41,736 nucleotides of DNA from Thermoproteota archaeon (GTDB lineage Archaea; Korarchaeota; JAOZGF01; JAOZFZ01). Shown one piece after another: positions 2,549 through 21,275 of the stretch; within the stretch, counting starts at the first letter, position 1, and the number at the start of each line of letters is the position of its first letter. A model generated the notes under the pieces. The model was not told the origin of the DNA. It worked only from the letters and a program-made list of their open reading frames with translations, and ran no database searches. Both the position numbers and the translations under genes were made by a program. Location: positions 1-41,736 of the forward strand of contig JAOZFL010000169.1 of assembly GCA_027491455.1 (NCBI GenBank). Direction: 5' to 3'.

Positions 2549-2737
2549 TTTTAATCCTCTCTTTACTAAACTTCATTGAAACTCCTTTTTACAAGGGTGT
2601 TTTCAATGTTCAAGGGTCAGTATTTAGTGACCACAAAGTTTCTGCTTTTTATCTTCTGTTTTAAGGTTTATGTTTTTGTACACCCTTTTAAACATTAGCA
2701 GTTTAAAAGTTTATTTCCGGGTCTAGACTCCTTGAAT

Positions 2738-3028
2738 TCAAAGGAAGTCTCCCCATTTCTTTATTTCCCTGTAGACTGCTTTGTATTTCTTCTCTTCTTC
2801 TTTTGCTTCCCTTTCAATGTCTAGAACTGATCGACTTCTTTTGATTTTAAATCTGCAGCGGCCGTCAGGAAGCATTGCCCTTTTCACGCAGAAGCTGAAC
2901 TTACAGCTAGGCCCTATGCACTCGCCCTCCACCCATGTACACCAGGCCCTCTTCGATCTGCTCCTCATAGCTTTCTTCATACACCTGAAGAATTTACATA
3001 TGGGCAGACATGCTTCTTTGCCACTCAT
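2738..3028 (-). CDS. Small cysteine-rich protein, 8 Cys, basic; putative metal-binding
   Basis: MSGKEACLPICKFFRCMKKAMRSRSKRAWCTWVEGECIGPSCKFSFCVKRAMLPDGRCRF...; CxxxCxxxxC spacing seen twice. Confidence 0.65.
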   Translation of the reverse strand: MSGKEACLPICKFFRCMKKAMRSRSKRAWCTWVEGECIGPSCKFSFCVKRAMLPDGRCRFKIKRSRSVLDIEREAKEEEKKYKAVYREIKKWGDFL

Positions 3029-3658: not shown

Positions 3659-6199
3659 TTACGCGAAGGCTTCCGGATAACTCGGTATTTCTCCGATTAT
3701 TAAGGAAGCTTCTCCTTCAAGCATTTTCTTAGCTGACTCCAGAGCTCCCTTCTTAAAAAGCGGCTTGTTGTTGTTTCCACATCTATATGAGTATGTGCAA
3801 AGTGGACATCCATCCAATCGGTTGCATCTACATTTATCGAGAACAACTGCAGCTCTGCTTAAGGCTTCCTTGAACCTTTGGAAAAGTAGACGTGACACTC
3901 CACTTCCTCCAGGTGAACTGTCGTAAACAAATATGTAACCAGTGTCCCCAAGAGATACACCACCCATTTCCCTGCTCCCCCCACCAGTTAACATGTTACT
4001 GCACTCCACTAGGACGTGTTCAAGTGCATGGAAGGCCCCTTGGATTAATTCATTTATGTTAAGCTCTGTTTTTCCTTCTTTCAAGGTTCTTTGTATAGAT
4101 TGAACTGGTTGAGGGGCCTTGAAAACTAATCCATATGTGGGGAAAGAATACTCGATTGGTTCCTGAAGGTAGCTTTCCCTAACTGTTTTTCGACTGTGAA
4201 TATCCTTTAGGAAGTAGCCATCTACTACTTCCTTGATCTTTAAGCTGCAATAAATGAATTCGTTTCCATTAACACTGTTCCTTTCTATTTTCTCGATTAT
4301 TTTTGGAAGTGTGTATCTCTTTGCAATTGTAAAGTACGGATAATCTTCACCCAGCGGGACAAGCTTTGCTTTACCCCTTCCCCACTTGAATTGGAAAGAT
4401 GTGGAGCGGTAGATTTTTCCTCCGTGAAGGTAAATAGCTCCTGGAAAAAGTTCTCTTGCAGCTAAGGGCATTTCCCTGTACCCTATCCTTTTGTTGTCTA
4501 AATATATATCCACACTTTCACCTATCCCCCTTATGTTATAGTTTCTGAGCGCTTTCCTAGCCTTCATGTGGTTCGGCAGCACCTTTCCAGATTTCCTAAC
4601 TAGAAACTCTTCCTCTATTAGCTTTTCTATATAGGCTCGTAAATGTGGAAATTCATTTCTTTCAATTGGTTTATCCATGGCAGCTGATATTAATTGATAA
4701 CGGGCAATTATCGGGTTTCTAGGTTCAATATAGGCGTGATCCACATCTTTAAAGAAATCTTCAGGTTTCTCCCTGTAGTAAAGGCTTATTTGATTGTCCT
4801 CTCTTAGGGCAAGTACAGCAATACCCACTTGCCCCTCCTTCCTAGCTGCCCTACCAATCCTTTGAAGGAACCTTGTGAACCCCACTGGGAAAGAAAGGAT
4901 ACTATCTAGGTCCCCTATATCTATTCCCAGCTCAAGGGTTGGAGTGCAAACCAACACGTTTAACTGGTTTTTAATGAATTTTTCCTCAACCTCTACCCTG
5001 TGTTTCTTTGACAACCCAGCTCTATGAACATCAGATTTAATCCCAGCTTTTTTAACAGCTTTATTAAGTAGTTCAGCGTGTAAATGGCTATTTGTGAAAA
5101 CAAGGGTTTTATACCCTTTATTGATGAATCTCCTTAAAATGGACACAGTCATTCTAGTTGAACCTGTTTCCCTAGGGTAAATCATGATAACATGTAGATC
5201 TCCTCTTCTACCACTTTCCTCTCTCACAACAACTGTTTTCCTCCCGAAAAGATCCCTTGAAAACCCCTCTGGGTTGGCTATGGTAGCGGATGCACCTATA
5301 AACTGAACCCCTGGAGAAACCCTTTCGATTCTCTTTAAAATGTAGTGGGCATTGGACCCGAAGGCTCCAATGTATTGATGCATTTCATCAACCACTATAA
5401 ATTTAACCCTTGAAATTATCCTGGAGAAATCTGTATGGTTTCTCAGATGGTAATCTATCACGTCGAAATTCGTTAAAACTATGTCAGGTGGCTCCTCTAT
5501 GATCTTCTTCCTTCTGTAATACGGTACATCTCCATCGAAAACTTCAACTTTTAATCCTAAGTATTTACATAGATCCTTTAGTTTCTTTACCTGGTCTCTT
5601 GCCAGCGACTTGGTTGGATAGATGAAAAGAGCTTTGACGTATTGGTTTTTACTTTTCATCTCCATGGATATTTGAAGTATGGGCAAAGCAAATGCCTCTG
5701 TTTTCCCAGTCCCAGTGGGAGCAACAATCACGGTGTCTTTCCCTTCTAGGATGTATTTAACGGCTTCTTCCTGGTATCTGTAAAGCCTTGAAATCCCTTT
5801 CTCCTTTAAAGCTTTGATTATCCCCTGAGACAACGGTGATTCATCTATTTCCCCTCCGACAGGCATCTTCTTACCGCTGTAAAAACGGTGGAAAACTAGT
5901 TCACAGTCTGGGCTTAAAGCTATTTCCTTCACTATTTCAGGTGTGTTTTCAGGTAGATGTACTTTGTCTCTCCCCTTCAAATATTTCTTTTCCCTTTCTT
6001 CAAAGGTGTATTTCTTCTTGAACTCTTGGTATGCTTCAAACTCATCCTTCACATTTACACTTGTAAAATAATATATTTTACACTTTGGACAAGATAAATA
6101 AAAATAGGATCCTCCCCTAACCTTTTTCACTCTAAGAAGAGCTTCTTTGCATCTAGGACACATAAAAGACATTTCCTTCACCAGTAAATGGGTTTTCAC
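3659..6199 (-). CDS. DEAD/DEAH-box helicase, Hrq1/MrfA (YprA)-like, with C-terminal Cys cluster and N-terminal zinc ribbon
   Basis: Walker A APTGTGKTEAF, DEMH box, SATIANP, QRIGRAARKEG; C-terminal CRCNRLDGCPLCTYSYRCGNNN (DUF1998/MZB-like); N-terminal CPRC...CPKC. Start may be the internal Met at MSFMCPRC. Confidence 0.9.
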   Translation of the reverse strand: MKTHLLVKEMSFMCPRCKEALLRVKKVRGGSYFYLSCPKCKIYYFTSVNVKDEFEAYQEFKKKYTFEEREKKYLKGRDKVHLPENTPEIVKEIALSPDCELVFHRFYSGKKMPVGGEIDESPLSQGIIKALKEKGISRLYRYQEEAVKYILEGKDTVIVAPTGTGKTEAFALPILQISMEMKSKNQYVKALFIYPTKSLARDQVKKLKDLCKYLGLKVEVFDGDVPYYRRKKIIEEPPDIVLTNFDVIDYHLRNHTDFSRIISRVKFIVVDEMHQYIGAFGSNAHYILKRIERVSPGVQFIGASATIANPEGFSRDLFGRKTVVVREESGRRGDLHVIMIYPRETGSTRMTVSILRRFINKGYKTLVFTNSHLHAELLNKAVKKAGIKSDVHRAGLSKKHRVEVEEKFIKNQLNVLVCTPTLELGIDIGDLDSILSFPVGFTRFLQRIGRAARKEGQVGIAVLALREDNQISLYYREKPEDFFKDVDHAYIEPRNPIIARYQLISAAMDKPIERNEFPHLRAYIEKLIEEEFLVRKSGKVLPNHMKARKALRNYNIRGIGESVDIYLDNKRIGYREMPLAARELFPGAIYLHGGKIYRSTSFQFKWGRGKAKLVPLGEDYPYFTIAKRYTLPKIIEKIERNSVNGNEFIYCSLKIKEVVDGYFLKDIHSRKTVRESYLQEPIEYSFPTYGLVFKAPQPVQSIQRTLKEGKTELNINELIQGAFHALEHVLVECSNMLTGGGSREMGGVSLGDTGYIFVYDSSPGGSGVSRLLFQRFKEALSRAAVVLDKCRCNRLDGCPLCTYSYRCGNNNKPLFKKGALESAKKMLEGEASLIIGEIPSYPEAFA

Positions 6200-6957: not shown

Positions 6958-7998
6958 ATGGTCAAGTTAAGTTTGCCGAGAACAGTGGAATGGATGGATG
7001 GAAATGTTAAAATGATCAATCAACTTTTACTGCCTTGGAAATTAGAGTACATAGTTACTGATAATTATGAAAGAGTGGCTGATGCCATTAAAAGAATGGA
7101 GGTAAGGGGAGCACCGGCAATAGGTGTTGCAGCTGCCTTTGCAATGGCATTGGCGGCTTTAAAAATAGACACGGAAGATGTTGGTTTGGCTTTAAAGAAA
7201 ATGGAAGAAGCAAAGTTGAAATTGGCCAACACAAGGCCTACAGCTATTAATCTTTTTTGGGCACTGGAAAGGATTCATCGCAAAGCCGTGAAATCCTGTA
7301 ATGTGGATGAATTAAAGAGAAGAATTTTGAAAGAAGCCATGTCGATAGCACGGGAAGATGAGGAGGTGAATAGAAAAATAGGTGAGCATGGAGAACCCTT
7401 GATAAATGATGGATCAAAGATTATCACAGTTTGTAACGCCGGTTCCTTGGCAACCAGTTACTTTGGAACAGCTTTAGCACCTATATACACTGCATGGATG
7501 AGAGGGAAGCAATTGGAAGTAATAGTTATGGAGACAAGGCCATACATGCAAGGGTCAAGGCTGACAGCTTGGGAGCTCAGTAAAGCAGGAATTCCCGTAA
7601 AAGTTATCACTGATAACTCAATAGGAATAGTTGTGGAGAGAGAAAAAGTAGATTTAGCCTTCGTCGGAGCTGACAGAGTAACAAAAGACGGATACATCAT
7701 AAATAAAATAGGTACCTACCCATTGGCCCTTGTTTGTAGAGAAAAGAAAATCCCAGTCTTTTCCTTTGCACCCACCAGCACAATAGACCCATCAAAAACT
7801 ATAAAGGAAGTTGAAATTGAGAAAAGGCCAAGTGAAGAAGTTATTTTTTTCATGAATAAAAGATTAGCCCCTGAAGGAGTGGAAGCCATCTACTATGCAT
7901 TCGATGTAACCCCGCCCAACCTGGTTGAGGGAATAGTTACTGAGAAAGGAATCCTCAGACAGCCACTAAGGGAATCTATTTCTAAACTCATTAAATAA
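6958..7998 (+). CDS. mtnA: S-methyl-5-thioribose-1-phosphate isomerase / aIF2B-family protein
   Basis: MEVRGAPAIGVAAAFAMALA, CNAGSLAT, ETRPYMQGSRLTAWEL, GADRVTKDGYIINKIGTYPLAL. Confidence 0.93.
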   Translation: MVKLSLPRTVEWMDGNVKMINQLLLPWKLEYIVTDNYERVADAIKRMEVRGAPAIGVAAAFAMALAALKIDTEDVGLALKKMEEAKLKLANTRPTAINLFWALERIHRKAVKSCNVDELKRRILKEAMSIAREDEEVNRKIGEHGEPLINDGSKIITVCNAGSLATSYFGTALAPIYTAWMRGKQLEVIVMETRPYMQGSRLTAWELSKAGIPVKVITDNSIGIVVEREKVDLAFVGADRVTKDGYIINKIGTYPLALVCREKKIPVFSFAPTSTIDPSKTIKEVEIEKRPSEEVIFFMNKRLAPEGVEAIYYAFDVTPPNLVEGIVTEKGILRQPLRESISKLIK

Positions 7999-8193: not shown

Positions 8194-8454
8194 GTGAACA
8201 TGGCTAAAAGAGAAACTATTAGGGAGAAACTTACAAAGGTCTTGAATGGTGATAGAGAAGAAATAAACAAAGTTACAACCAACTCCTGGAGTGATGGAAA
8301 CTACTCGAAACTCACTAAAACTGAAGGGGGCCTTCTACAAGAAGTGAACCATATCTCAGAGATAATCAGTGAATTGAGAGAGAAATCAGAGATGCTTAAT
8401 AAAAGAATTCAAAGGTTGGAGGAAGCAATCTTTGGAGAATATGAGAGTAGGTAG
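8194..8454 (+). CDS. Small coiled-coil protein upstream of the ParA-like gene
   Basis: 86-aa ORF; C-terminal heptad-like NHISEIISELREKSEMLNKRIQRLEEAIF; overlaps the next ORF start. Confidence 0.6.
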   Translation: MNMAKRETIREKLTKVLNGDREEINKVTTNSWSDGNYSKLTKTEGGLLQEVNHISEIISELREKSEMLNKRIQRLEEAIFGEYESR

Positions 8455-9403
8455 ATCCCTTGTATTTGCAAATCCAAGGGGAGGAGTAGGGAAAACAACA
8501 GTGGCGTTTCTCTCCACTATTTTAATGGCAACCATAAAACCTCCAAGGGATAAAAAGAAGTATGTGTATGTGGAAATGGATTTTGGAGCTGAAAGTGCAA
8601 CTAAAATATGGGATGCCTCCTTTAAAGTTGAGGGAGAAAACACGTTGAAGGATTATCTCCTAGATAAATGTGAAATAGAGGACATAGCTTATACAAGTTC
8701 TAGAAACCCTGTTTACCGAAACATAGCTTTCATCCCCGCTGGAAAAATAACAGATGTTAAACTAAACTTATTTGCAAAATACGAAATGTATGTAGAGAAA
8801 TTGGATGAGTTAATGGATTTCCTCTGGGAGAAATCAGAGAAAATAGTGATTGATTGCCCTGGATCAGGTGGACTGAATTACTTAAGAGATTACTTGTTAA
8901 TTTTACCATTGGGGGATAGTTTTATCCCTGTAGTGGAACCAGATATTCCTAGCATAGATTCAGCTAATTCCTTGATTGATTTAGCTATGTTAATGAACCT
9001 AAATTATCCCCTCTTCATCTTCAATAAGTATGAGAAAAAGTATCACTGGATTTTAGAGGAGGCTAAAAGGAAACTTAGAATAGGAGAAACCCAGCAACCC
9101 TTCTTCACCGTTAGGTTCGACAAGAAAATAATGGAGTACTGGAGCAAACTTGAACTGAAGGTTAACGGATGCAAAGCTGTTGAAGACGTGAAAAAATTTG
9201 TCAGTTACATTTTAGAGTTACCTGAAGAGTTTTCTAAGCCAACCTGGAAAGCTAAGGAGATATTCAAGGTGATTAAACATTTCAGGGCAGTGAGACGCCT
9301 TCAACCTGAACACTTACTTAGAAAAAAACGATCAAAAAGGAGTGATGTCTCCTCCGAACTGGAAATCCTTGCAGGAATGAAAGAAAAAAGGTTTGAAAAG
9401 TGA
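8432..9403 (+). CDS. ParA/MinD-like P-loop ATPase (SIMIBI class)
   Basis: Deviant Walker A FANPRGGVGKTTVAF; YVEMDFGAES; KIVIDCPGSGG. Start may be the internal Met at MRVGRS. Confidence 0.85.
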   Translation: MENMRVGRSLVFANPRGGVGKTTVAFLSTILMATIKPPRDKKKYVYVEMDFGAESATKIWDASFKVEGENTLKDYLLDKCEIEDIAYTSSRNPVYRNIAFIPAGKITDVKLNLFAKYEMYVEKLDELMDFLWEKSEKIVIDCPGSGGLNYLRDYLLILPLGDSFIPVVEPDIPSIDSANSLIDLAMLMNLNYPLFIFNKYEKKYHWILEEAKRKLRIGETQQPFFTVRFDKKIMEYWSKLELKVNGCKAVEDVKKFVSYILELPEEFSKPTWKAKEIFKVIKHFRAVRRLQPEHLLRKKRSKRSDVSSELEILAGMKEKRFEK

Positions 9404-10188
9404 AAAGCATTAAAGTTATTATTTATTGTTTTTCTCTTTCTCTTGGGGTAACACTTGGATTAAAAGGTTTAAACACATTTACCAATGATCTGTTTATTCC
9501 GCCAATGTCTCCCCTTCCATTACCCAAACACATTTCCACCTTATCCCTTCTAACTTCAAGCTTCATCCTTTTCCTTTCCCTTGGCTACTTGAGTTTAGTT
9601 CTTCCAGAAGCAGCAATCTACTTAATAAACGGTATATACATTGGTGGGAACCTGGCTTGCCTGAAGTCTTTATCATCTATTCTCGTTTTAAATTCAAACA
9701 GCAGAGACTTGGAACCAAGCCTCAACATTTTCATTTCAATTTTCAGCTTGGGCGTTGCTTTGTTAGCTGATAGCTTGGGAGAGGAATTAAATATGAAATG
9801 GGGGCTGAAGAGATCCATGGCATGGGATCTTACCCTGTTATTTTTTCTTTTCCTCACCCCTACCTTAACTATTTACTCAATAGAGACCTCCGGTTTCCAA
9901 ATAAGGGATTTAGTTATCTTAAACTCTAGCACAGCAAGTTCCCCCTTATTTACAATATTTATCCCCCCTCTTTTAGCTATTATTAAGCACCTTTATTTTT
10001 CCATTAAAAGAAGAGTGAAACTAAAAGTTAAAATCGATCGGTCAATGGCTGAGGAGAGGAGGAGAAGAGCTTACAGAGAGCTAAGCAAAGCATTTGAAGA
10101 TTTATTTCTCGATGCAGCTCTAAAAGGTTCAGGTGATAACTGTGTTGAGAGAGGCAGATTGGTTTTTAAAGGAAAAGAAAGAGGTTAA
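9400..10188 (+). CDS. Polytopic membrane protein with basic cytoplasmic C-terminal helix, coupled to the ParA-like gene
   Basis: Several hydrophobic segments then RSMAEERRRRAYRELSKAFEDLF; GTGA overlap with the upstream stop. Confidence 0.7.
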   Translation: MKSIKVIIYCFSLSLGVTLGLKGLNTFTNDLFIPPMSPLPLPKHISTLSLLTSSFILFLSLGYLSLVLPEAAIYLINGIYIGGNLACLKSLSSILVLNSNSRDLEPSLNIFISIFSLGVALLADSLGEELNMKWGLKRSMAWDLTLLFFLFLTPTLTIYSIETSGFQIRDLVILNSSTASSPLFTIFIPPLLAIIKHLYFSIKRRVKLKVKIDRSMAEERRRRAYRELSKAFEDLFLDAALKGSGDNCVERGRLVFKGKERG

Positions 10189-10192
10189 GAGG

Positions 10193-11134
10193 TTAGAAGC
10201 CCTTTTCAAAGGGGCCCAAGTGAAAGTAAAGCTCTAAATCCATTTTCACCCTTTTTAGCTCTCCACCAATAAAAACAAAGCTGTCTCCTTTAACATCCAT
10301 TACAAAGCCGCTTAAAAACACATTTATTTCTACATATTCTTTTTCCACTCCGTTTTCATCTGTCAAGTTGTATGTGTAAACATTAATAGTTTTGTTTATT
10401 TCTAGAAGTATTTTAAGCTTTGAAAGCAGCTTACTGCTTGAATCTATACCAGTTACATTTTCAAGTATTTCAATAATTTCCCTATCCATTAAACTCGCAA
10501 CTTTATCTTTTAACTCATTTGTGGTTAGGTTAGATGTTAAGTTTGTCCATGAGAAATTTATTTTCAGGTTTTTAAGTGCTTTTAAAATTCTATATAAAAG
10601 GAAAATCCTCACTGGGTGAGTTACTGACATTTTAACGTTATGATTCAAATTGGAGTTTCCATGTTTATCTTTTATGTGGAGGTTTAACTGTATACCCACA
10701 AACACTGCCCCTCTATCTATTTCTCTACTCCCAATTGTTCCGCTAAGGATCACTTTGTTATATTTTTCATCTGCAAGTTTATGTCCTGTCAACTCCCTCA
10801 AAGTTACTTTGCAATCTGCATCCAAAGAAATCCCCTTTGATCTAAACCTCTGTTTCTCTTTTTCCATCCAACCTTGAAGTGTTTCAACCCCTAATTTAAG
10901 GTTTTCTTCAGGGTTTAAACCATTTAACGCAATTTCATTTATTTTGACATCTAGGTAATCACGTAAGCGAAGCAGCAAATGTGCAATTGTGACTTTTTCT
11001 GTGAATTCAACTCTTTGCATGCTGCCCAAACTCTTAATGTATTCTGATCTATCCACGTGGGGAGTGAAGATGAAGAGTGTTACACCTAGAATCAATATCC
11101 CAAGAGTGAAAAGGAAAGGAAATGGTTTACTCAA
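10193..11134 (-). CDS. Single-pass secreted/cell-surface protein, distal gene of the pilus-like operon
   Basis: N-terminal TM FPFLFTLGILILGVTLFIF, large extracytoplasmic region with NxS/T sites; 4-nt overlap with the next gene. Confidence 0.65.
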   Translation of the reverse strand: MSKPFPFLFTLGILILGVTLFIFTPHVDRSEYIKSLGSMQRVEFTEKVTIAHLLLRLRDYLDVKINEIALNGLNPEENLKLGVETLQGWMEKEKQRFRSKGISLDADCKVTLRELTGHKLADEKYNKVILSGTIGSREIDRGAVFVGIQLNLHIKDKHGNSNLNHNVKMSVTHPVRIFLLYRILKALKNLKINFSWTNLTSNLTTNELKDKVASLMDREIIEILENVTGIDSSSKLLSKLKILLEINKTINVYTYNLTDENGVEKEYVEINVFLSGFVMDVKGDSFVFIGGELKRVKMDLELYFHLGPFEKGF

Positions 11135-11508
11135 CTTTTAATCCCCACTGAAACATTGATTTTAACATTCAACCCATATATTTCAAGTTCATCCTCTGAA
11201 AAACTGTAAAATCCCATGCTTTGGCAGCCGAACACCCGTGTTTCATTATTGATTGACAATGTAAATGCTGTTGATAAACCAGAAGAATTAACTTCTCTGA
11301 AAAGGTTTTCTGGGTTTGAAATCCCCCAAATCACTTTTAAAAGTAATCCTTTGTAGTAAAGATTTTCAATCAGTTTATTTGATTTCTCCCTAAAAAGAAA
11401 AATTTTAGTAACTGGTTTATTCACTGGTGAAAATGTATAATAAGCTGCGAATCCTATTGCTAAAAGTAGAGCTAAAACACCATCAAATATTATTAGGCTT
11501 CTCACCAT
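11131..11508 (-). CDS. Pilin-like small N-terminal-TM protein
   Basis: MVRSLIIFDGVLALLLAIGFAAYYTFSP..., beta-rich C-terminus; operon context. Confidence 0.6.
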   Translation of the reverse strand: MVRSLIIFDGVLALLLAIGFAAYYTFSPVNKPVTKIFLFREKSNKLIENLYYKGLLLKVIWGISNPENLFREVNSSGLSTAFTLSINNETRVFGCQSMGFYSFSEDELEIYGLNVKINVSVGIKS

Positions 11509-11517
11509 TAACCCCTT

Positions 11518-11775
11518 TTATAGATGCATAAGTTTCCATTTCCTTTCCCTTTCAACCCTTACATGTGCTAGGTTAATCAAGGGAATTTCATTAATTTTGC
11601 ATTCATCACGTTTAATGGAACAATAAAATCCGGTATTCATTGAACAGTTTCTTTGAGGTTCAACCACTGGTTTTGTTTCTCTAAAAGCCGGTTGATTCAT
11701 GAAGACAGTGACTAAGAATAAAAGTGCAATTATGAAAAGTGCAAAGGAGAAGGAGAGTTCTAATACTTCATCCAT
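11518..11775 (-). CDS. Pilin-like small N-terminal-TM protein with 3 Cys
   Basis: MDEVLELSFSFALFIIALLFLVTVFM; operon context. Confidence 0.6.
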   Translation of the reverse strand: MDEVLELSFSFALFIIALLFLVTVFMNQPAFRETKPVVEPQRNCSMNTGFYCSIKRDECKINEIPLINLAHVRVERERKWKLMHL

Positions 11776-12170
11776 TATTTAACCCTCTTAGGATGTATCC
11801 AAATCGGAGATATATTTATTGTGTCATTTGGCCCCCCTATCCATGGAGTCTTTACATTAAAACCTGTTTCTAATGAGAAACATGTAGATCCAGGGGTTAA
11901 GCCATTTAAACCTGTGCTGTTTAACAAATAAATGGTTAGGGATTGATTTGACACTAAAACAATGTATTTAAAACCTAGATCCGGCAATTTAAAGGAAACT
12001 GAAATATTTTTCTGGATTGAAAACTCTATAACGCTCCTTAAATCAACTAAGAGCACTGATGAAGCAGTTTCCAACCCCCATTTATAAATGACCAATGAAG
12101 CTTTAAGTGAAACAAAAAGGCCAATCAAACCTATCAAGTAATATATTGTTATTGGTATAGCCCTATGCAC
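11775..12170 (-). CDS. Pilin-like small N-terminal-TM protein
   Basis: PITIYYLIGLIGLFVSLKASLVIYKW...; 1-nt overlap with the neighbour. Confidence 0.6.
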   Translation of the reverse strand: MHRAIPITIYYLIGLIGLFVSLKASLVIYKWGLETASSVLLVDLRSVIEFSIQKNISVSFKLPDLGFKYIVLVSNQSLTIYLLNSTGLNGLTPGSTCFSLETGFNVKTPWIGGPNDTINISPIWIHPKRVK

Positions 12171-12179
12171 TTCATCACC

Positions 12180-12572
12180 TCAACTCACCTCTATTTCCAC
12201 ATGTTCAGAATCCCCTTTTAGTGAAACCCTGTAATATCCATCTTCAGGTACCTTTAAGGTTTCAAACTTTACCTTGAAAGGGTAACACCTGTTTACAGAT
12301 GTTCCCCCTAAACAAAAAACCAATATGTACTGAGAATTGTTCTTCTGAACCCCTATTTCAAGGTTTTTTGGGAGGAAAAGGGTTAGTTCTTCTCTTCCAC
12401 CCCCTATAACAAGGTAAATTGCTTCATCCAGGTCACATGCAATTTTGTCGAGTAAGGAACGGGTTGATTTCCACTGGATTAAAAAGTAGTCTTCAGTTAA
12501 GGCATTAAGGGTTAAGAGTAGCAATGAGAATCCAAGAGCTAAAATAAGAGCTGATGTTATCACTTCATTCAT
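12180..12572 (-). CDS. Pilin-like small N-terminal-TM protein
   Basis: MNEVITSALILALGFSLLLLTLNALTEDYF (acidic residue followed by hydrophobic helix, flagellin/pilin-like), beta-rich C-terminus. Confidence 0.62.
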   Translation of the reverse strand: MNEVITSALILALGFSLLLLTLNALTEDYFLIQWKSTRSLLDKIACDLDEAIYLVIGGGREELTLFLPKNLEIGVQKNNSQYILVFCLGGTSVNRCYPFKVKFETLKVPEDGYYRVSLKGDSEHVEIEVS

Positions 12573-12587
12573 TTGTTTTTCACCGTT

Positions 12588-13277
12588 TCACCTGAAAAAA
12601 GACCAAAAGAAGTTATGGGAGACCAGGAAGACAGCTACATAGATTAAACAGTAGAAGATTGAGTCCTTCACAATTTTCGCAGTCATAACACTGTTAAAAA
12701 ATATTAAAAGGGAGAAAGGAAAAACTAGGTAGTTGTCTGACAATGAAACTTGAGTCGATGTTTTAAATGAATTGAATAAGTAATAAAGTTTTATCAGTCC
12801 CCCCAAGGTAAATGAGAAAATAGTGTTAAGAATCCTTGCTTCAATTCTCTTAACCTTAAATATGTTTTCTCTTTCCTTTTTAAGGTTTAAAAAGGAAATT
12901 AATTCATTTGAAGCATCCATTAATCTTTCTCCAGTTATTAGGTGATCTAGTTTGGAGAGTTTCATGGTTTCAAGTACTTGCTGAATAGATTTATGCTGCT
13001 CCATATCCACTTTTAATTCATCAATAACTTCTAGGAGGGTTTTCTTTCCATGTATTAAGTCTATACACAGGGATTTCACCCTTAGAATGTCTGAGTCTTT
13101 AGCTGATTCTATAAAGGATTTTTCGGGGCTCTTACCCAGAACCATGTTTGAACCAACCTTTCTGATGAAGAAAATCATGTTTTTTTCCTCTTCAATTGTT
13201 AATTTCATGTTTTCTCTCAGTATCAGTTTCTTAATGCCTCTGTACAAGGCACTAAACTTTTTTATGCCTTGAATCAT
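12588..13277 (-). CDS. Type II secretion system F (T2SF/TadB/TadC-like) platform protein
   Basis: Helical cytoplasmic domain (GKSPEKSFIESAKDSDILRVKSLCIDLIHGKKTLLEVIDEL) followed by C-terminal TMs; next to a second T2SF-like gene and the ATPase. Confidence 0.65.
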   Translation of the reverse strand: MIQGIKKFSALYRGIKKLILRENMKLTIEEEKNMIFFIRKVGSNMVLGKSPEKSFIESAKDSDILRVKSLCIDLIHGKKTLLEVIDELKVDMEQHKSIQQVLETMKLSKLDHLITGERLMDASNELISFLNLKKERENIFKVKRIEARILNTIFSFTLGGLIKLYYLFNSFKTSTQVSLSDNYLVFPFSLLIFFNSVMTAKIVKDSIFYCLIYVAVFLVSHNFFWSFFR

Positions 13278-13284
13278 TTCTTTC

Positions 13285-14094
13285 TCACTTTTGAAGGTTA
13301 AACATTTTAATTGAAACCGAAAACCAAACCACGAAAATAATGGTCAATATGGAGGGGTTTAGACTATAAAGAGACCCAATAAGTGTGATTATAAGGGAGT
13401 ATATGTATCCTAGGGTGAGGAACAAGGTAAGTTTAAGGGTTATTTCCTGGTTTATTTTCCTGTATCTTCGCTTTATACTTTCCCTAGCTGCCTTGGAAGC
13501 TAATTTCAATGATTCATACATGTTTAAATAATTAAGGGATAACAAAAGACTCTTTATCTCTTCTTTAAACGGGATTCTTTTCTCCATAATATAATTAACC
13601 AAGGAGTCGAGGGGGTGTTCCCCTCTAATATATATTTTCCTGTACAGATCTGCAAAGTCGCTGCTTATTCCTCTAAGGTTAGCTAAAGAAACATTTTTCA
13701 CCGCTGTAGTTATATTCATGGTGCTAATTAAAGATAAACCTATACATTCAATGAGGTCCACAGAGACCTCTCCGTACCTTTCAATTGTGTTTTCGTAAAG
13801 GTAATTTCCTAAACCCGGTAAAACCACAAAGTACAGGCTGAACAAGAAAAGGATTAAAGAGAGGATTATCTCTGCTCTAAGGGATAAAAAGAACCCTAGA
13901 ATAATGGTTAAGAGTGAAAAGAGGAGTATAGAGACAGCAGCTGCAGATTTAATTTCCACAGAGCAATACGGTATCCCTTTACTTTTTAAGGCAAAGTCTA
14001 ATCTTTCATCTGGTGAGAAATATCTACCCACCAACCGTGTTGAAGAAGAAATAAATTTGTCAATGGGTTTCAGCAGCCATAATCGTCTTTTCAA
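13285..14094 (-). CDS. Type II secretion system F (FlaJ/TadC-like) platform protein
   Basis: Paired TMs, cytoplasmic domain (IECIGLSLISTMNITTAVKNVSLANLRGISSDFADLYRKIYIRGEHPLDSLVNYI), C-terminal TMs. Confidence 0.75.
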   Translation of the reverse strand: MKRRLWLLKPIDKFISSSTRLVGRYFSPDERLDFALKSKGIPYCSVEIKSAAAVSILLFSLLTIILGFFLSLRAEIILSLILFLFSLYFVVLPGLGNYLYENTIERYGEVSVDLIECIGLSLISTMNITTAVKNVSLANLRGISSDFADLYRKIYIRGEHPLDSLVNYIMEKRIPFKEEIKSLLLSLNYLNMYESLKLASKAARESIKRRYRKINQEITLKLTLFLTLGYIYSLIITLIGSLYSLNPSILTIIFVVWFSVSIKMFNLQK

Positions 14095-16000
14095 CCTCTA
14101 AACCCCTAATACGCCTGGTTAATTCACTTAATGATAGGTTTCCCGCCCTTAAATCTTCAAGCATATATTTAATCTTCGAAATCTGGTCATCAAACTCCCT
14201 CTTGGTTAACCCTTGTAATTCAAGAATTCTTTTGACAGGTTTCAGCTTAGATTGATCCCTTATTGTTTTTTCAGCTCTTCCCTTTTCTGGAACCCATTTA
14301 AAGCTGAACTTAAACTCATCTACCCCTGGGTGGCAAATGGACCCCAACCTCCTAGTGACAACTGGTCCCTTAACAATTTTCTTAAGTGAGATTATTGTTT
14401 CAACGGGGTTTAAACTGAACTTCCACTTCAACCACTTCTCACTTAGTTCCTCTAAACTTTTAGAATGAGTGGTTGCCATGCTCCCTATCCCGCTTTCAAC
14501 AGATAAAATAAATGCTTCTATTTCATCGGGTTTCCTAAGCTCTCCTATATAGAGGAAATCAGGGTTTCTCCATAGAGATTTATAGATCTCATTTACTTTT
14601 ACACTTTCCCTTTCAGTTTTAATCTCTAGAGGGGGGACCTCGTAAAGTACATGTTGAACCCCGTAAGGGTTAAAATCCATTATTTCACGTACATCTTCAA
14701 TGGAAATAAGTCTTTTATCAGGTCCCAAGAAGGGTAAAAGTGCATTTGCAAGTGTAGTTTTCCCTGAACTTGTAGGTCCAGTGATCAGTATAGATGTACA
14801 ATTTTTGATTAGCCAAACAAGCAGTGAAGCTGCTTCGCTATTCAGCATCTCTTTTTTAATAAGCTCTGGAAGAGTTAATTTATGTATGTGTAAGTTCCTT
14901 ATATCCAGGGCATGTGTTGAAAGGGGAGGGGCATCGTAGCTGATCCTTGCTTTGTAGTATTTCCCAATAAGGTCTACTTTCACACTTGGCTGCTTATAAG
15001 TTATAACCCCATAGTTATCGGTTGAGATTAAGGATTCTATTTTCTTCACCAAGTTCACGTCCATTTTAACCTCTGTTAGACACTTCCCCAGCTCTGAATG
15101 TTCAATGTGCAGGTTTCTTCCATAAACTCCATAAACCTCATTTATTTCGCTTTCAATATATATGAATGGGAATATCTCCTCTATTTTAGTGTTTGTTGAA
15201 GCTAGTTCAAGTGATAAATCCTTTATTTCTTCAGATCCTAAGTTTGGTAAATATTTTTCTAGGTAGGACTTGGCAAGAGCAACCCTAGTTTCTAGTATTT
15301 CTTCAAAGGACATGTTTAAAATGTCCATTTCAGAGTTATCTAGTTGGTGCACTATTTTCTTTAGAAATAAATCATCCAACCCAAGTTTAGATGAAATCTT
15401 CTTTATTTTTAATAATGTGCTCTGTCCATTTCCCTTAAGGAAAAAGTATCCGAAAGGCCCCCTCCAATTCTCTTCTATAAGAACTAGGTTTCCTATCTCT
15501 TCTTTTTTGGTTATTTGTTCTCTTTTTTTAACCCTTAAAACTTTTCTTTTAATTACTTCCTCATAAACTTCGACACCACGTTCCCTGTAGTCATGGAGAA
15601 ACCTTTTTATTAGATGTGTTTTTCTTAATTTTTTAGTTATTTTCCTAAGGCTTTTGGACTTGTTTGATTCTTCATTTAACTCTAAGAATCCTTGGATAGG
15701 GTTTTGCTTCTGTTTTTCATAGATTCCCCTGTGGATTCCTCTTTCAGCGTCACTTAGTTTAATGAAGTTCTTTGCAAACGTAGATAGGTAATTGATTATT
15801 AATTCAAGGTCCACTTGACATGTGAATTTTGACGAGTCCAGTATTAGTTTTTTTGAATCATCTAGACCCAGCTTACCCTTCAGTATATCATTTAAAACAC
15901 ATCTGATGCATTGCAGGGCAATTGGTAATTGTATGCAATTACATGATTTAATGTTCATGCTTAGACACCACTTTTCATCTTTGAGTTCCTTCTGGGACAA
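14060..16000 (-). CDS. Archaeal type II/IV secretion (TadA/VirB11/GspE-like) ATPase
   Basis: Walker A TGPTSSGKTTLANALL, ISIEDVREI, Walker B-type PDFLYIGELRKPDE, ATTHSKSLEEL; N-terminal CNC-x9-CIRC cluster. Confidence 0.92.
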   Translation of the reverse strand: MSQKELKDEKWCLSMNIKSCNCIQLPIALQCIRCVLNDILKGKLGLDDSKKLILDSSKFTCQVDLELIINYLSTFAKNFIKLSDAERGIHRGIYEKQKQNPIQGFLELNEESNKSKSLRKITKKLRKTHLIKRFLHDYRERGVEVYEEVIKRKVLRVKKREQITKKEEIGNLVLIEENWRGPFGYFFLKGNGQSTLLKIKKISSKLGLDDLFLKKIVHQLDNSEMDILNMSFEEILETRVALAKSYLEKYLPNLGSEEIKDLSLELASTNTKIEEIFPFIYIESEINEVYGVYGRNLHIEHSELGKCLTEVKMDVNLVKKIESLISTDNYGVITYKQPSVKVDLIGKYYKARISYDAPPLSTHALDIRNLHIHKLTLPELIKKEMLNSEAASLLVWLIKNCTSILITGPTSSGKTTLANALLPFLGPDKRLISIEDVREIMDFNPYGVQHVLYEVPPLEIKTERESVKVNEIYKSLWRNPDFLYIGELRKPDEIEAFILSVESGIGSMATTHSKSLEELSEKWLKWKFSLNPVETIISLKKIVKGPVVTRRLGSICHPGVDEFKFSFKWVPEKGRAEKTIRDQSKLKPVKRILELQGLTKREFDDQISKIKYMLEDLRAGNLSLSELTRRIRGLEVEKTIMAAETH

Positions 16001-16106
16001 GGTAAAGAGTTGAGGAATATGAAAAGAAAAATTTTCCTTAGAAAAAATTTTTCAAAATAAAACTTATTAAAGAGAGAATCATATAGATAATTTTTACCGG
16101 GTTGAA

Positions 16107-16298
16107 ATGAATAAGATAGTTGAGTTTTCCCTCATTCTCTTTTTAGCTGTTTCATTTGTTTTATTGGTTTACAGTACATATATAGACAAGGAAATGAATT
16201 TTCTAACTGAGTTCTTTATAGCCCTTCAGGGATCAAAAGAGAACCTTGTAAGCTTTATAGCGAAATTTCTTTACCGATTTCTTCACTTCTCTACATAA
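16107..16298 (+). CDS. Small single-pass membrane protein, divergent from the secretion ATPase
   Basis: MNKIVEFSLILFLAVSFVLLVYSTYIDK... Confidence 0.4.
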   Translation: MNKIVEFSLILFLAVSFVLLVYSTYIDKEMNFLTEFFIALQGSKENLVSFIAKFLYRFLHFST

Positions 16299-16825: not shown

Positions 16826-18265
16826 ATGACGGAGAGAGAGGGAAGCATGGGTTTTCCTGGGAAAAGATATCTAATAGAAAACTTTAACCTAAACAAGGAG
16901 GAACTAGAGGATTTTATAGATTTTCTTTTAAGAACATTTATTAAGCCAAGAACCCCAAATATCTCAGATTTAAAGGTTGAAAAGACAAGTGAAGGTGCCC
17001 ATGTATCCCTCATTTACTTTTTATTCTCTCCATATGGAAAATGGGAGCTGAAAATTCACTTTGATATATCTGAAAAACTTATCGTTGAAATTAAAGGAGA
17101 TATGGTTAAACCATTAGTGAATCAACTGTTAAGTGAGATTCATGGTTTAGCCCAAACATACAAGTTAACAAAGGGAAAGGGATCCATTTACTTGAACTTT
17201 TTAGAAGGAGAGAAACCAGCTGAGGAGCTTGAACGAGCTCCGAGCGGTTACGGTGTTTTTTCCAGGAATTTAATAGGTGTTTACATGGTTATCATGGGGT
17301 TAATGATTTTTCTCTTTTTCTTCTTCGGCTTTTACGCTTTTTTCACCTTGCTTATGGTTCAATTTGGCATTTTCCTCTTCTCCGATAAGATAATGTATAA
17401 CATGGGAACATGGCGGCTGAAAGAGGATAAGAGAAACCTTTTAATGGTTAAATTAAAGGTTCCCATAGATCAATTCACCTCCTTACTAAGAAAGTACTGG
17501 TCCAAGATACCTGAGATAAAGATGAAGATGTTTGAGAAAACATCTAATTGGACCAAGAAACTCGCAAAGGAAGATGTTTTAAAGGTTTTCTGGGATTATG
17601 GGATCAATGCAAAGCTGAAAGACATTGATATATCAGCTGTAGATGTAATGGGAGTAGTGGGGAGAGCAGCTAAAAAACTTTCTATCAAAACCCCTAAAGT
17701 TTCTCTTTTAAATATTATTACACCTAATGCAGCCGCTACAGGGCCTAGTCAAAGTAAATCAACCATTGCAATTACAACGGGCTTGATCGCAATTGCAAAT
17801 GAAGATGAACTTGAAACCGTAGTAGGCCATGAGCTTGGCCACATAAAAAACAAGGATCCCTTCCTGCTCTTGCTGATCAGTATGGTCATTGAAACCGCTA
17901 GGATTTTCCTTTTCTTCACATTTTTCTATCCATTAGCTGTGCTTTATTTCTTTGTAGGCATCACAGTAATTTTCTTCTTAGCCAAAATGCTTGAGATAAG
18001 AGCGGATTTAGAGACAATAATTTGGCTTGGAAAACCACTTTACTTTGCCGACATACTCAAAAAACTTGAGTATCACAGCCCAATTAAGAGACCAAAATCT
18101 ATATTCACATGGTTTGCATGGGAAACTCATCCTCCAATGTATTTTAGGGTTAAATTAGCCGAGGAAATGGCGAATAAAACTTTTGAGAGAAAACCTAGTA
18201 CAACTTTAATGGCCTTTAAAAAGCTCATTCAAGGTTTCTTCGAAGATTTAACCCAAAGCTTTTAG
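16826..18265 (+). CDS. M48-family (HtpX-like) membrane metalloprotease with about 130-aa N-terminal extension
   Basis: VVGHELGHIKNKDP zinc motif, downstream EIRADLE, flanking TMs. Confidence 0.88.
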   Translation: MTEREGSMGFPGKRYLIENFNLNKEELEDFIDFLLRTFIKPRTPNISDLKVEKTSEGAHVSLIYFLFSPYGKWELKIHFDISEKLIVEIKGDMVKPLVNQLLSEIHGLAQTYKLTKGKGSIYLNFLEGEKPAEELERAPSGYGVFSRNLIGVYMVIMGLMIFLFFFFGFYAFFTLLMVQFGIFLFSDKIMYNMGTWRLKEDKRNLLMVKLKVPIDQFTSLLRKYWSKIPEIKMKMFEKTSNWTKKLAKEDVLKVFWDYGINAKLKDIDISAVDVMGVVGRAAKKLSIKTPKVSLLNIITPNAAATGPSQSKSTIAITTGLIAIANEDELETVVGHELGHIKNKDPFLLLLISMVIETARIFLFFTFFYPLAVLYFFVGITVIFFLAKMLEIRADLETIIWLGKPLYFADILKKLEYHSPIKRPKSIFTWFAWETHPPMYFRVKLAEEMANKTFERKPSTTLMAFKKLIQGFFEDLTQSF

Positions 18266-18325: not shown

Positions 18326-19594
18326 TTAAAGGACTCCGTACATCTTCAGTATAGCTATAAGGATGAAAGTGGCCATTGAATCTGAAACCGAGGCTACAAC
18401 TGGGATCACAAAGTTGTCAGGGTCCAACCCCCTCTTAAAAGTTAAAACTGCCATCGACAATGAAAGTAGTGTAGCGAAAGCGAAACCTAAAAGATTACAG
18501 GTAACTGCAACCTTGACCATGAAGCCTAATTTAACGGTTAAATTAGTGTAAACAGATAATAAGAAGCCTATTGAACCATAGATAGCGTGCATGAAGAAAG
18601 CAGCTGCTTCGACAGCTGATAAATCTACAAATAAAGTTTTCACAGCACTTTTAAAAGAGGAAACATAGCCTAAAGCTATCTTAGTTGTGGCCATTGATCC
18701 AGTAGCGCTTCCTATGTCGCCTAAGGCATCTATCAGGACAGGATACAAAATGAGAACCCCAAGATTTCCTTCAATCACTCCTCTAAACCTTGCAAGAATC
18801 ATTCCATTAAAGGATCCAAACAAGCTGGAAAAGAAAACCACAGGTCCTCCTTCTTTAAGTGTTCTTTTAAAAAGTTCTTCTCTTGAGAACCTTTTGATCA
18901 TTAATAATGCAGTTAAGATAAACAATGAACAAACAATCATGTTAAAGGCTAAAGTAGCTAGGGTGAATGATAAAACGAGGTAAATATTTACTACAAGGAA
19001 AAAAGTAACAATTACATCGTTCAAAGTTGACATTACCGGGTAAACCAGTAAGTCAGGGTCAAGTCCTCTTTTAAAGCTTTCAAAGGCAACAGCTAATGTT
19101 ATCGGAAGAGTAAAGGCAACGGCTTCGAGACACACAACTGTTGGTATAAAAATATAGAAAGGTAAATCGGGAAGTGCAGCCTGGGAAACAAATAAATTCA
19201 TGAGAAAAGAAATAAAACCTATACCAAGAGTATCCACTAATGTTAAAACCAAGATAGCGGAAATTAAATTATAGAAATCATCTGTGTTACGCCTGAAACA
19301 GGTTTTTATCTGTCCTGTGTGAAGCATTGTACCTAGTTTACCTGAGAGAATACCACTTATGTCTCCTCTAATGGTTAAAATTGGTGGAAAAATACCTAGT
19401 ATCCATGGATAGATCGCTAGTAGGCTTGAGAAGATAGCTATTAATCGACCTGAGAACAATCCCCCTGCATCGAAGGCCAAGAATAAAGCTGCTTGGAAAA
19501 GCACTGAAAGGAATTTTGAGGTAACCTGGTAAAAATTTGTTTCCTTTGCCCCATGGCAAACCACTTCCACAACGTAGCCCTGAAATGTAGCCAT
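18326..19594 (-). CDS. SLC41/MgtE-type divalent cation transporter, two tandem MgtE-like membrane repeats, no CBS domains
   Basis: PPILTIRGDISGILSGKLGTMLHTGQ and YPVLIDALGDIGSATGSMATTKIALG repeats. Confidence 0.85.
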   Translation of the reverse strand: MATFQGYVVEVVCHGAKETNFYQVTSKFLSVLFQAALFLAFDAGGLFSGRLIAIFSSLLAIYPWILGIFPPILTIRGDISGILSGKLGTMLHTGQIKTCFRRNTDDFYNLISAILVLTLVDTLGIGFISFLMNLFVSQAALPDLPFYIFIPTVVCLEAVAFTLPITLAVAFESFKRGLDPDLLVYPVMSTLNDVIVTFFLVVNIYLVLSFTLATLAFNMIVCSLFILTALLMIKRFSREELFKRTLKEGGPVVFFSSLFGSFNGMILARFRGVIEGNLGVLILYPVLIDALGDIGSATGSMATTKIALGYVSSFKSAVKTLFVDLSAVEAAAFFMHAIYGSIGFLLSVYTNLTVKLGFMVKVAVTCNLLGFAFATLLSLSMAVLTFKRGLDPDNFVIPVVASVSDSMATFILIAILKMYGVL

Positions 19595-19895: not shown

Positions 19896-21275
19896 GTGAT
19901 TAATTTGTGGAGCATTCTTTATTACTTAAGAAATAAACCCGAGAAAATTAAGTGGTCGTTGAGAAGAAGAGGCCTGAGTACAACAGTGGTTGACGGTGCA
20001 ATTGAAGTGGATAAATCTTGGAGGAACAGCTTAAATGAGCTGCAGAGATTTAAACATGAGCATAATGTAATTTCCAGGGAGATAGCGAGATTAAAGGGGA
20101 AGGAAAAGGGAGAGAAAATAAAAGAGGCAAAAAAACTATTAGAGAAAATAAATGAACTCGAGGGGAAAGTTAAGAAACTAGAGAGGGAAAGGGAGAGGAT
20201 GCTGCTGCAAATCCCTAACTTAATAAGTGAAGATGTACCCATTGGAAAGGATGACACAGAAAATGTGCCCTTAAGGTTCTTCGGTAAACACAAAGTTTGG
20301 AGGGGATATTTAAATGCTTTCTTGGAGATGACAGGGAGACATAGAGTTGAATATGAGGTTGTGGATGAAAAACCAATGGGACACGCCGACATGTTAACGT
20401 TTCTTGGCTACGGAGACACAAGTAGAGCTTCAAAGGTCGCTGGAACAAGATTCTACTATTTATTTGATGATTTAGTCTGGTTAGATACATCACTTTTATT
20501 ATATGCCCTAGATCATATGGCTAGAAAAGGATTTAAAGTCGTTATACCTCCTTACATGATGAGAAGAGAAGCATATGAAGGTGCAACTGCGCTTGAAGAC
20601 TTTGAAACAGCAATCTACAAAGTTGAAAATGAGGATCTCTATTTAATAGCTACATCGGAACACCCCATAGCAGCTATGCACATGGGGGAAATAATTCAAG
20701 AAAAAGATTTACCCATGCTCTACACAGGTTTAAGCCCTTGTTTTAGGAGAGAAGCAGGGGCACATGGCAAGGAAACCAAGGGGATCTTCAGGGTTCATCA
20801 GTTCCACAAAGTTGAACAGTTTGTTTTCTGCACGCCCGAGGACTCTTGGAATTGGCATGAAAAACTTATAGAGAACGCCGAAGAGCTTTGGCGTGGCCTC
20901 GGTATCCCCTACAGAGTCGTAAACATATGCACAGGTGATTTAGGGGTTGTAGCAGCTAAGAAATATGATTTAGAGACTTGGATGCCTGCTCAAGGCAAAT
21001 ATAAGGAGATGGTTAGCTGCAGTAATTGCCTTGACTATCAGTCGTATAGATTGAGGATAAGATACATTAAGGGGAGCGGTGAAAGAGGATATGTCCATAC
21101 ATTAAATTCAACAGCTGTAGCTTCCACCAGGGCTATAACAACTATTTTAGAGAATTGCCAAGATGAAGAGGGAAATGTGATGATTCCCAAGGTTTTAAGA
21201 CCCTACCTTGAAATATTCAGTAAAGCTCCTCAAGACGTGATTGTACCTATAAAGAAAGAGAAGAGAACTCTATAG
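19896..21275 (+). CDS. serS: Seryl-tRNA synthetase (canonical type)
   Basis: N-terminal coiled coil; LIATSEHPIAAMH, GLSPCFRREAGAHGKETKGIFRVHQFHKVEQF, LNSTAVASTRAI. Confidence 0.95.
   Translation: MINLWSILYYLRNKPEKIKWSLRRRGLSTTVVDGAIEVDKSWRNSLNELQRFKHEHNVISREIARLKGKEKGEKIKEAKKLLEKINELEGKVKKLERERERMLLQIPNLISEDVPIGKDDTENVPLRFFGKHKVWRGYLNAFLEMTGRHRVEYEVVDEKPMGHADMLTFLGYGDTSRASKVAGTRFYYLFDDLVWLDTSLLLYALDHMARKGFKVVIPPYMMRREAYEGATALEDFETAIYKVENEDLYLIATSEHPIAAMHMGEIIQEKDLPMLYTGLSPCFRREAGAHGKETKGIFRVHQFHKVEQFVFCTPEDSWNWHEKLIENAEELWRGLGIPYRVVNICTGDLGVVAAKKYDLETWMPAQGKYKEMVSCSNCLDYQSYRLRIRYIKGSGERGYVHTLNSTAVASTRAITTILENCQDEEGNVMIPKVLRPYLEIFSKAPQDVIVPIKKEKRTL

Follow-up and report, generated by a model that had tools for sequence, protein, structure and literature searches.

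We analyzed contig C3 of a draft genome, probably korarchaeal (G000; 2.2 Mb in 223 contigs); the entire contig, 41,736 bp, is called the window here. Its minus strand carries an eight-gene operon that very probably encodes a type IV filament machine, and a plus-strand cassette encoding a coiled-coil protein, a MinD-like ATPase of the ParA type (ParA below) and a membrane protein converges on it. We give a somewhat better than even chance to the cassette serving the pilus machine. The full reading that we favor, with moderate confidence, is a Tad/Epd-like inner machine that uses a pilin encoded on contig C121 and a prepilin peptidase encoded on contig C59, with the MinD cassette acting on the machine. 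Relatives are cited by numbered handles (G for genomes, f for families, g for genera, L for loci); the window's own family, f1, is a deep lineage of the phylum, beside that of G004. The features are as follows (TM, transmembrane segment; aa, amino acids).

8194 to 8454, plus strand: cc86, a small coiled-coil protein; likely ATG start at 8200; overlaps the ParA start
8432 to 9403, plus strand: MinD/ParA-family ATPase (PF13614, minD_arch); likely ATG start at 8441
9400 to 10188, plus strand: TM262, a polytopic membrane protein whose C-terminal tail is basic; shares 4 nt with the end of the ParA ORF
10193 to 11134, minus strand: p313, a large protein with a single N-terminal TM; iterated profile with 12 members
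11131 to 11508, minus strand: p125, minor-pilin-like; homologue in G001 at 2.7e-9, in G002 at 0.014 by profile
11518 to 11775, minus strand: p85, a small N-terminal-TM protein with no leader; same slot in G001, G002 and G024
11775 to 12170, minus strand: p131, minor-pilin-like; homologues in G001, G002 and G024
12180 to 12572, minus strand: p130, minor-pilin-like, with the core GGG...F.P; about 10 further genomes
12588 to 13277, minus strand: p229, second platform protein, short and T2SF-like; profile of 19 members at E<1e-3
13285 to 14094, minus strand: T2SF269, first platform protein, short and T2SF-like by iterated profile
14060 to 16000, minus strand: secretion/assembly ATPase of the TadA/GspE2/FlaI superfamily (PF00437); likely ATG start at 15958
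16107 to 16298, plus strand: s63, tentatively a candidate pilin-like protein of 63 aa; its gene is divergent from the operon, and residue 6 is Glu

The operon runs from the ATPase gene (16000-14060) through p313 (11134-10193) and holds, besides the ATPase, two short membrane proteins and four small and one large single-TM proteins. Its intergenic gaps, counted downstream of the platform start, range from -4 to +15 nt. The three open reading frames (ORFs) of the cassette overlap each other, and the stop codons of cassette and operon lie 4 nt apart (10189-10192). An earlier reading of this DNA, made from the letters alone (the sequence-only reading), had described these positions, strands, the tight packing and the 4-nt convergent gap, and re-checking the ORFs bore out all of them. 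The ATPase probably starts at Met15, because its G001 homologue begins there; the start given for ParA is probable because GGAG stands just upstream, within the coiled-coil gene.

The operon is conserved in relatives. The order ATPase-platform-platform-p130-p131-p85-p125-p313 is kept in G001 and also in G002, where an A24-type peptidase gene is inserted; G024 has a similar, partial order with a single longer platform gene. All genes but the 85-aa one have significant homologues in the same order in G001, so the operon is not a chance assembly. The 85-aa gene, p85, has counterparts of 69, 50 and 49 aa in the matching slot of G001, G002 and G024, respectively. Each has Glu as its sixth residue, and their sequence similarity to p85 is weak by itself.

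The window ATPase matches PF00437 (T2SSE) at 2e-17, above the cut-off, as expected of the secretion ATPase that the sequence-only reading had named. PDB profile matches rank its nearest solved relatives as archaeal GspE2-type (2oap, 6e-36), then FlaI (1e-31), then CpaF (7e-24). In a tree of 49 ATPase rows, the window protein and 17 others from the host phylum form one clade (support 100/99). Next to this clade stand two ATPases of a different archaeal family, f15 (G038 and G060; 100/99), and then the G131 ATPase (99/98), whose placement is looser owing to long branches. The five bacterial CpaF included in the tree form their own group (99/92), and the window ATPase stands outside it, in the archaeal clade; it also stands apart from the G234 branch, which we take to be M. 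jannaschii FlaI, and thus outside the archaellum FlaI clade. These relationships place the ATPase in the T2SSE/TadA family, as a member of a separate, deep and long-branched archaeal clade and not as a bacterial CpaF. A CxC...CxxC motif at its N-terminus (window 15860-15958) is shared with G001 and G024, occurs in a related form in G017 and is absent from those f3 ATPase sequences that we inspected. A scan of a set of genome contigs with the ATPase query gave no match, and one with the ParA alignment returned distant relatives only.

Neither platform protein, T2SF269 nor p229, has a Pfam match of its own. An iterated profile started from T2SF269 gathers the equivalent genes of other operons together with two-domain T2SF proteins of the same genome, and reaches a 643-aa protein of L054 that itself matches PF00482 at 3.3e-23. 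Thus, the two T2SF proteins proposed in the sequence-only reading are linked to bona fide T2SF by iterated profiles, but Pfam finds neither. If an ancestral two-domain platform had been split, the first gene should resemble its N-terminal half and the second its C-terminal half. With low probability, hhalign puts T2SF269 on the N-terminal half of two-domain T2SF (E 1.9e-4) and, weakly, p229 on the C-terminal half (E 0.006). The platforms of Tad and Epd-like systems have been proposed to stem from such a split of a two-domain ancestor (PMC6668835). In the window, G001 and G002 the short platform genes lie side by side as a pair, and their likeness to TadB/TadC sequences is weak. Apparently reduced loci are found in f3 g4 genomes (L045, L047, L049, L058, L060), which pair an ATPase of the clade with one platform gene of ~313 aa; this gene adjoins one that starts like an SMC/RecN-type ATPase, and no p130-type set was found nearby. 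These loci resemble the two-component 4D loci of Makarova 2016.

Among the small components, p130 is the most widely conserved: its further genomes include G004 and G038, the latter from another phylum. The homologues of p131 score 8.1e-12 in G001, 6.7e-5 in G002 and 8e-5 in G024, and G004 is among the 12 members of the p313 profile. Profile comparison revealed no mutual relation between p130, p131, p125, p85 and p313. Single-sequence AlphaFold2 models were uninformative for p130 (predicted local distance difference test, pLDDT, 45; a long N-terminal helix followed by strands) and p313 (pLDDT 44). A simple scan for leader motifs found none in most of the window's small proteins and gave weak matches in p131 and p125. 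In the p125 slot, G002 encodes a protein with an obvious class III-like leader (MNKKG/ISIITLD, the slash marking the cleavage site) and a profile match to p125 of only 0.014. The small proteins of the window would be mostly leaderless minor-pilin-like parts.

A start Met with Glu at residue 6 is found in p85, its counterparts and s63, and likewise in the small proteins encoded within the operons of G003, G004 and G006. The pattern looks as if the initiator stood at the glycine of the leader. It is a long shot, in our judgment, that some small components and the in-operon subunits of G003, G004 and G006 are pilins "born mature", with Glu5 after the Met and no leader cleaved; that the pattern means assembly without processing is speculation. 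If true, the assembly of a filament or its base would in part bypass prepilin processing, and a MinD specific to the lineage would place it. For s63, profile search gave no significant sequence match; a 66-aa N-terminal-TM ORF occupies the corresponding position in G001 and is likewise divergent from its ATPase.

We located a pilin and a peptidase elsewhere in the same genome. A profile of the operon-linked short pilins of relatives found, at 3.2e-7, a stand-alone short pilin on contig C121 with the N-terminus NRKRGRKG/ISEVASEALLIATSISLF, a canonical archaeal class III signal (cleavage region KRGRKG/ISEV). Stand-alone short pilins with a class III-type signal occur in G000, G001, G002 and G017, and short pilin-like proteins of 60-96 aa lie in or beside operons of same-clade ATPases in G009, G011, G028, G008, G023 and G038. 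One relative's short pilin matches PF04964 (Flp-type) at E 0.017, below the cut-off. An A24 prepilin peptidase with the archaeal C-terminal domain is encoded on contig C59. A24-type matches stand in or beside the pilus locus of seven relatives, three of them below the Pfam cut-off, and in none of the loci of the window's family. The sequence-only reading had remarked that an obvious class III signal and a prepilin peptidase were missing; they are indeed absent from this contig but are present in the genome. Both lie outside the window, and their pairing with this machine is one that we infer.

The operon might instead encode a short secretion or uptake pseudopilus, its leaderless small proteins amounting to no more than a base in the membrane. 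The operon lacks a major pilin, its small proteins mostly lack leaders, and four small proteins plus a large one resemble a pseudopilin set. However, in six other genomes an ATPase of the same clade goes with a short leadered pilin encoded within or next to the operon, and a matching pilin exists in the same genome on C121, which makes a pseudopilus unlikely.

On C121 (L204) the pilin gene (2732-3004) is followed by one for a 110-aa protein with three TMs (2392-2721); a similar pair is present in G001, and in G022 both ORFs lie close together. G000 also carries two further ordinary archaeal pilus loci, on contigs C53 and C159 (L055, 3305-17267; L054), with two-domain T2SF proteins of 633-644 aa and leadered pilins; these could also use the C121 pilin.

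The ParA/MinD ATPase of the sequence-only reading held up on profile search: ParA matches PF13614 at 1.5e-8, above the cut-off, and minD_arch at 1.9e-9. Its P-loop, PRGGVGKTT, retains the P-loop Lys and has Arg in place of the first "signature" Lys. In the family alignment GG.GKTT, D50 and D141 are invariant, and the first "signature" Lys is replaced by Arg, Ser or Gly. With its P-loop Lys and switch aspartates, the window protein falls within the MinD/ParA superfamily. Among 297 archaeal genomes, seven members, all in the phylum, score at least 250 bits and the next best protein 89 bits. By these scores, ParA is a sharply bounded, phylum-restricted MinD-like family with one copy per genome.

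We considered whether ParA is strictly orthologous to TadZ/CpaE. Its atypical P-loop, its linkage to a Tad-like operon and an hhalign probability of 96.5% to bacterial CpaE (E 8.8e-10) would fit. Yet ParA is far closer to archaeal MinD (99.9%, E 1.9e-33), keeps the P-loop lysine that CpaE examples lack and has no N-terminal receiver-like domain: it begins at the P-loop, and the CpaE match starts from about residue 149. Strict orthology is therefore very improbable.

Over its best stretch of 28 residues, cc86 is hydrophobic at 7 of the 8 a/d positions, against a mean of 5.5 after shuffling; in G024, a coiled-coil ORF of 62 aa (8 of 8 a/d positions) immediately precedes ParA. TM262 belongs to no Pfam family, and its only homologue was found in G001, downstream of ParA (E 1.8e-10). 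The 264-aa membrane protein behind the G009 ParA is alike in position and size and shows no sequence similarity, and we rejected it as a TM262 counterpart. A C-terminal amphipathic membrane anchor of ParA, suggestive in G016 and G022, is not clear in the window protein and was likewise set aside. In the ParA homologue of G024 (L083, 7526-8968), the P-loop is interrupted by an intein-like insert (GGG-CVDGD...VIHN-TGCTS); minus the insert, the protein has Cys at the P-loop lysine position and would resemble CpaE-type proteins.

The seven ParA members fall into four lineages, and in three of them ParA stands beside pilus genes, each time in a different arrangement. In f1 (G000 and G001) it adjoins the pilus operon, its orientation relative to the operon being inverted between the two genomes; in G001 a 568-aa two-TM protein lies between ParA and the operon. 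In f3 genus g7 (G016, G020 and G022) ParA lies inside a second pilus-type operon, the G020 contig ending before the ATPase, and in f5 (G024) ParA and the similar coiled-coil ORF stand beside a short-pilin ORF (5.2e-7). With ~2.6 T2SSE genes per genome, a given gene would lie within 10 kb of one in ~3% of cases. Linkage in three of four lineages exceeds this expectation, by an estimate that is rough and post hoc. An operon of G131 (L137, 3965-10020) encodes a MinD (NRGGVGKTT), proteins of 88 and 233 aa, an 84-aa coiled coil, a 747-aa ATPase and a 620-aa polytopic protein, and this MinD-coiled coil-ATPase-platform arrangement, from a different archaeal family, parallels the window cassette.

Alternatively, the ParA cassette may be an independent locus, positioning another cargo for example, whose adjacency to a real pilus operon is incidental. 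Several observations weigh on that side and against a partnership. The cassette lies on the opposite strand in the window. In f4 (G017) ParA stands alone, its 6.9-kb contig being free of pilus genes, and the family is found in 7 of 29 genomes and is missing from most ATPase-bearing ones, including the 1,590,757-bp G004. The 29 genomes of the phylum hold at least ~160 AAA_31 and 76 T2SSE matches, and generic MinD genes lie near pilus ATPases outside the clade too, at about the chance rate; because several pairs within 10 kb are expected by chance among these genomes, we rejected generic MinD-pilus proximity as evidence. The filament, the pilin fold of the small proteins and an interaction of ParA with the machine are all predictions. 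Against an independent locus, this single-copy family is linked to pilus genes in all but one of its four lineages, each time in a different arrangement, and the adjacency survived an inversion between G000 and G001. We consider incidental adjacency doubtful, though well short of negligible. The sequence-only reading had held that a ParA cassette without the pilus operon in relatives would count against it, and this is half the case: G017 and most ATPase-bearing genomes go against it, and three lineages show the linkage.

Taken together, these results are consistent with a surface filament that has its own positioning module, as the sequence-only reading had suggested: the Tad-like type IV filament operon and the linkage in three lineages support it, but the positioning is something we infer. 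In the model that we favor, the assembly ATPase would drive the split two-part platform, which would pull short pilins, once processed, out of the membrane and build them into a filament. The leaderless minor-pilin-like proteins may initiate or anchor this filament, whose subunit would most likely be the C121 short class III pilin, cleaved by the C59 A24 peptidase. This step reads the gene content in the light of what is established about type IV filaments. The MinD-like protein would dimerize at the membrane in an ATP-dependent manner and gather at one place, and the dimer would recruit or position the base or limit the number of machines, a step that we draw from the linkage and the protein family. 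The coiled coil cc86 and TM262 could serve as its adaptor or anchor.

TadZ/CpaE, FlhG/FleN and haloarchaeal MinD4 are MinD-family ATPases that govern the placement or number of a surface machine. Like Haloferax MinD4 and bacterial FlhG/FleN, ParA would control such placement or number; unlike them, it belongs to another sequence family, and its gene, together with those for a coiled coil and a membrane protein, adjoins a pilus operon. Among archaeal pilus loci, those of clades 1 and 4G have been reported to include FleN/MinD ATPases, which were also predicted for others; their genes stand sometimes within the pilus operon and more often separate. In Pyrobaculum/Thermoproteus, the 4G loci encode small helical proteins of the cytoplasm as well (Makarova et al. 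2016, PMC4858521). TadZ has been linked to these archaeal MinD-type proteins (Denise et al. 2019, PMC6668835). The pairing of MinD ATPases with archaeal pilus loci was thus already known in 2016 and 2019, and a ParA-type ATPase for positioning or regulation is no novelty in such loci.

The window system shares with the archaeal type IV pili of clades 1/4G (arCOG00589 / arCOG05608) an assembly ATPase, a probably TadC-like platform, several single-TM proteins resembling minor pilins and a linked MinD ATPase, and with clade 1 the two platform genes. It differs in its separate long-branched ATPase clade, its phylum-restricted ParA, and platform and small proteins that Pfam does not recognize. Epd-like archaeal pili and bacterial Tad likewise have two single-domain platform genes, a short pilin and a MinD-superfamily partner (TadZ in Tad). 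In contrast to these, the window's ATPase stands apart from CpaF, its MinD-like partner lacks the CpaE receiver domain, and no secretin, CpaB or TadE/F/G was recognized. The new elements are the lineage-specific ATPase clade and its diverged components, a ParA family confined to the phylum and linked in varied ways, and the pattern of pilins without leaders.

Almost no surface machinery has been described for the host phylum, and a literature search of limited coverage found no paper on korarchaeal pili. A pilus system whose platform and pilins are too diverged for standard families would widen the known range of archaeal filaments and enlarge the set of machines paired with MinD-type ATPases. 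The compact cassette of coiled coil, MinD and membrane protein may be useful for testing pilus placement by archaeal MinD.

The flanking genes are ordinary. On one side of the locus lie an MrfA-like helicase (3659-6199) and an eIF2B/MtnA-type protein (6958-7998), and on the other an M48 peptidase (16826-18265), an MgtE-type transporter (18326-19594) and a SerRS-like protein (19896-21275).

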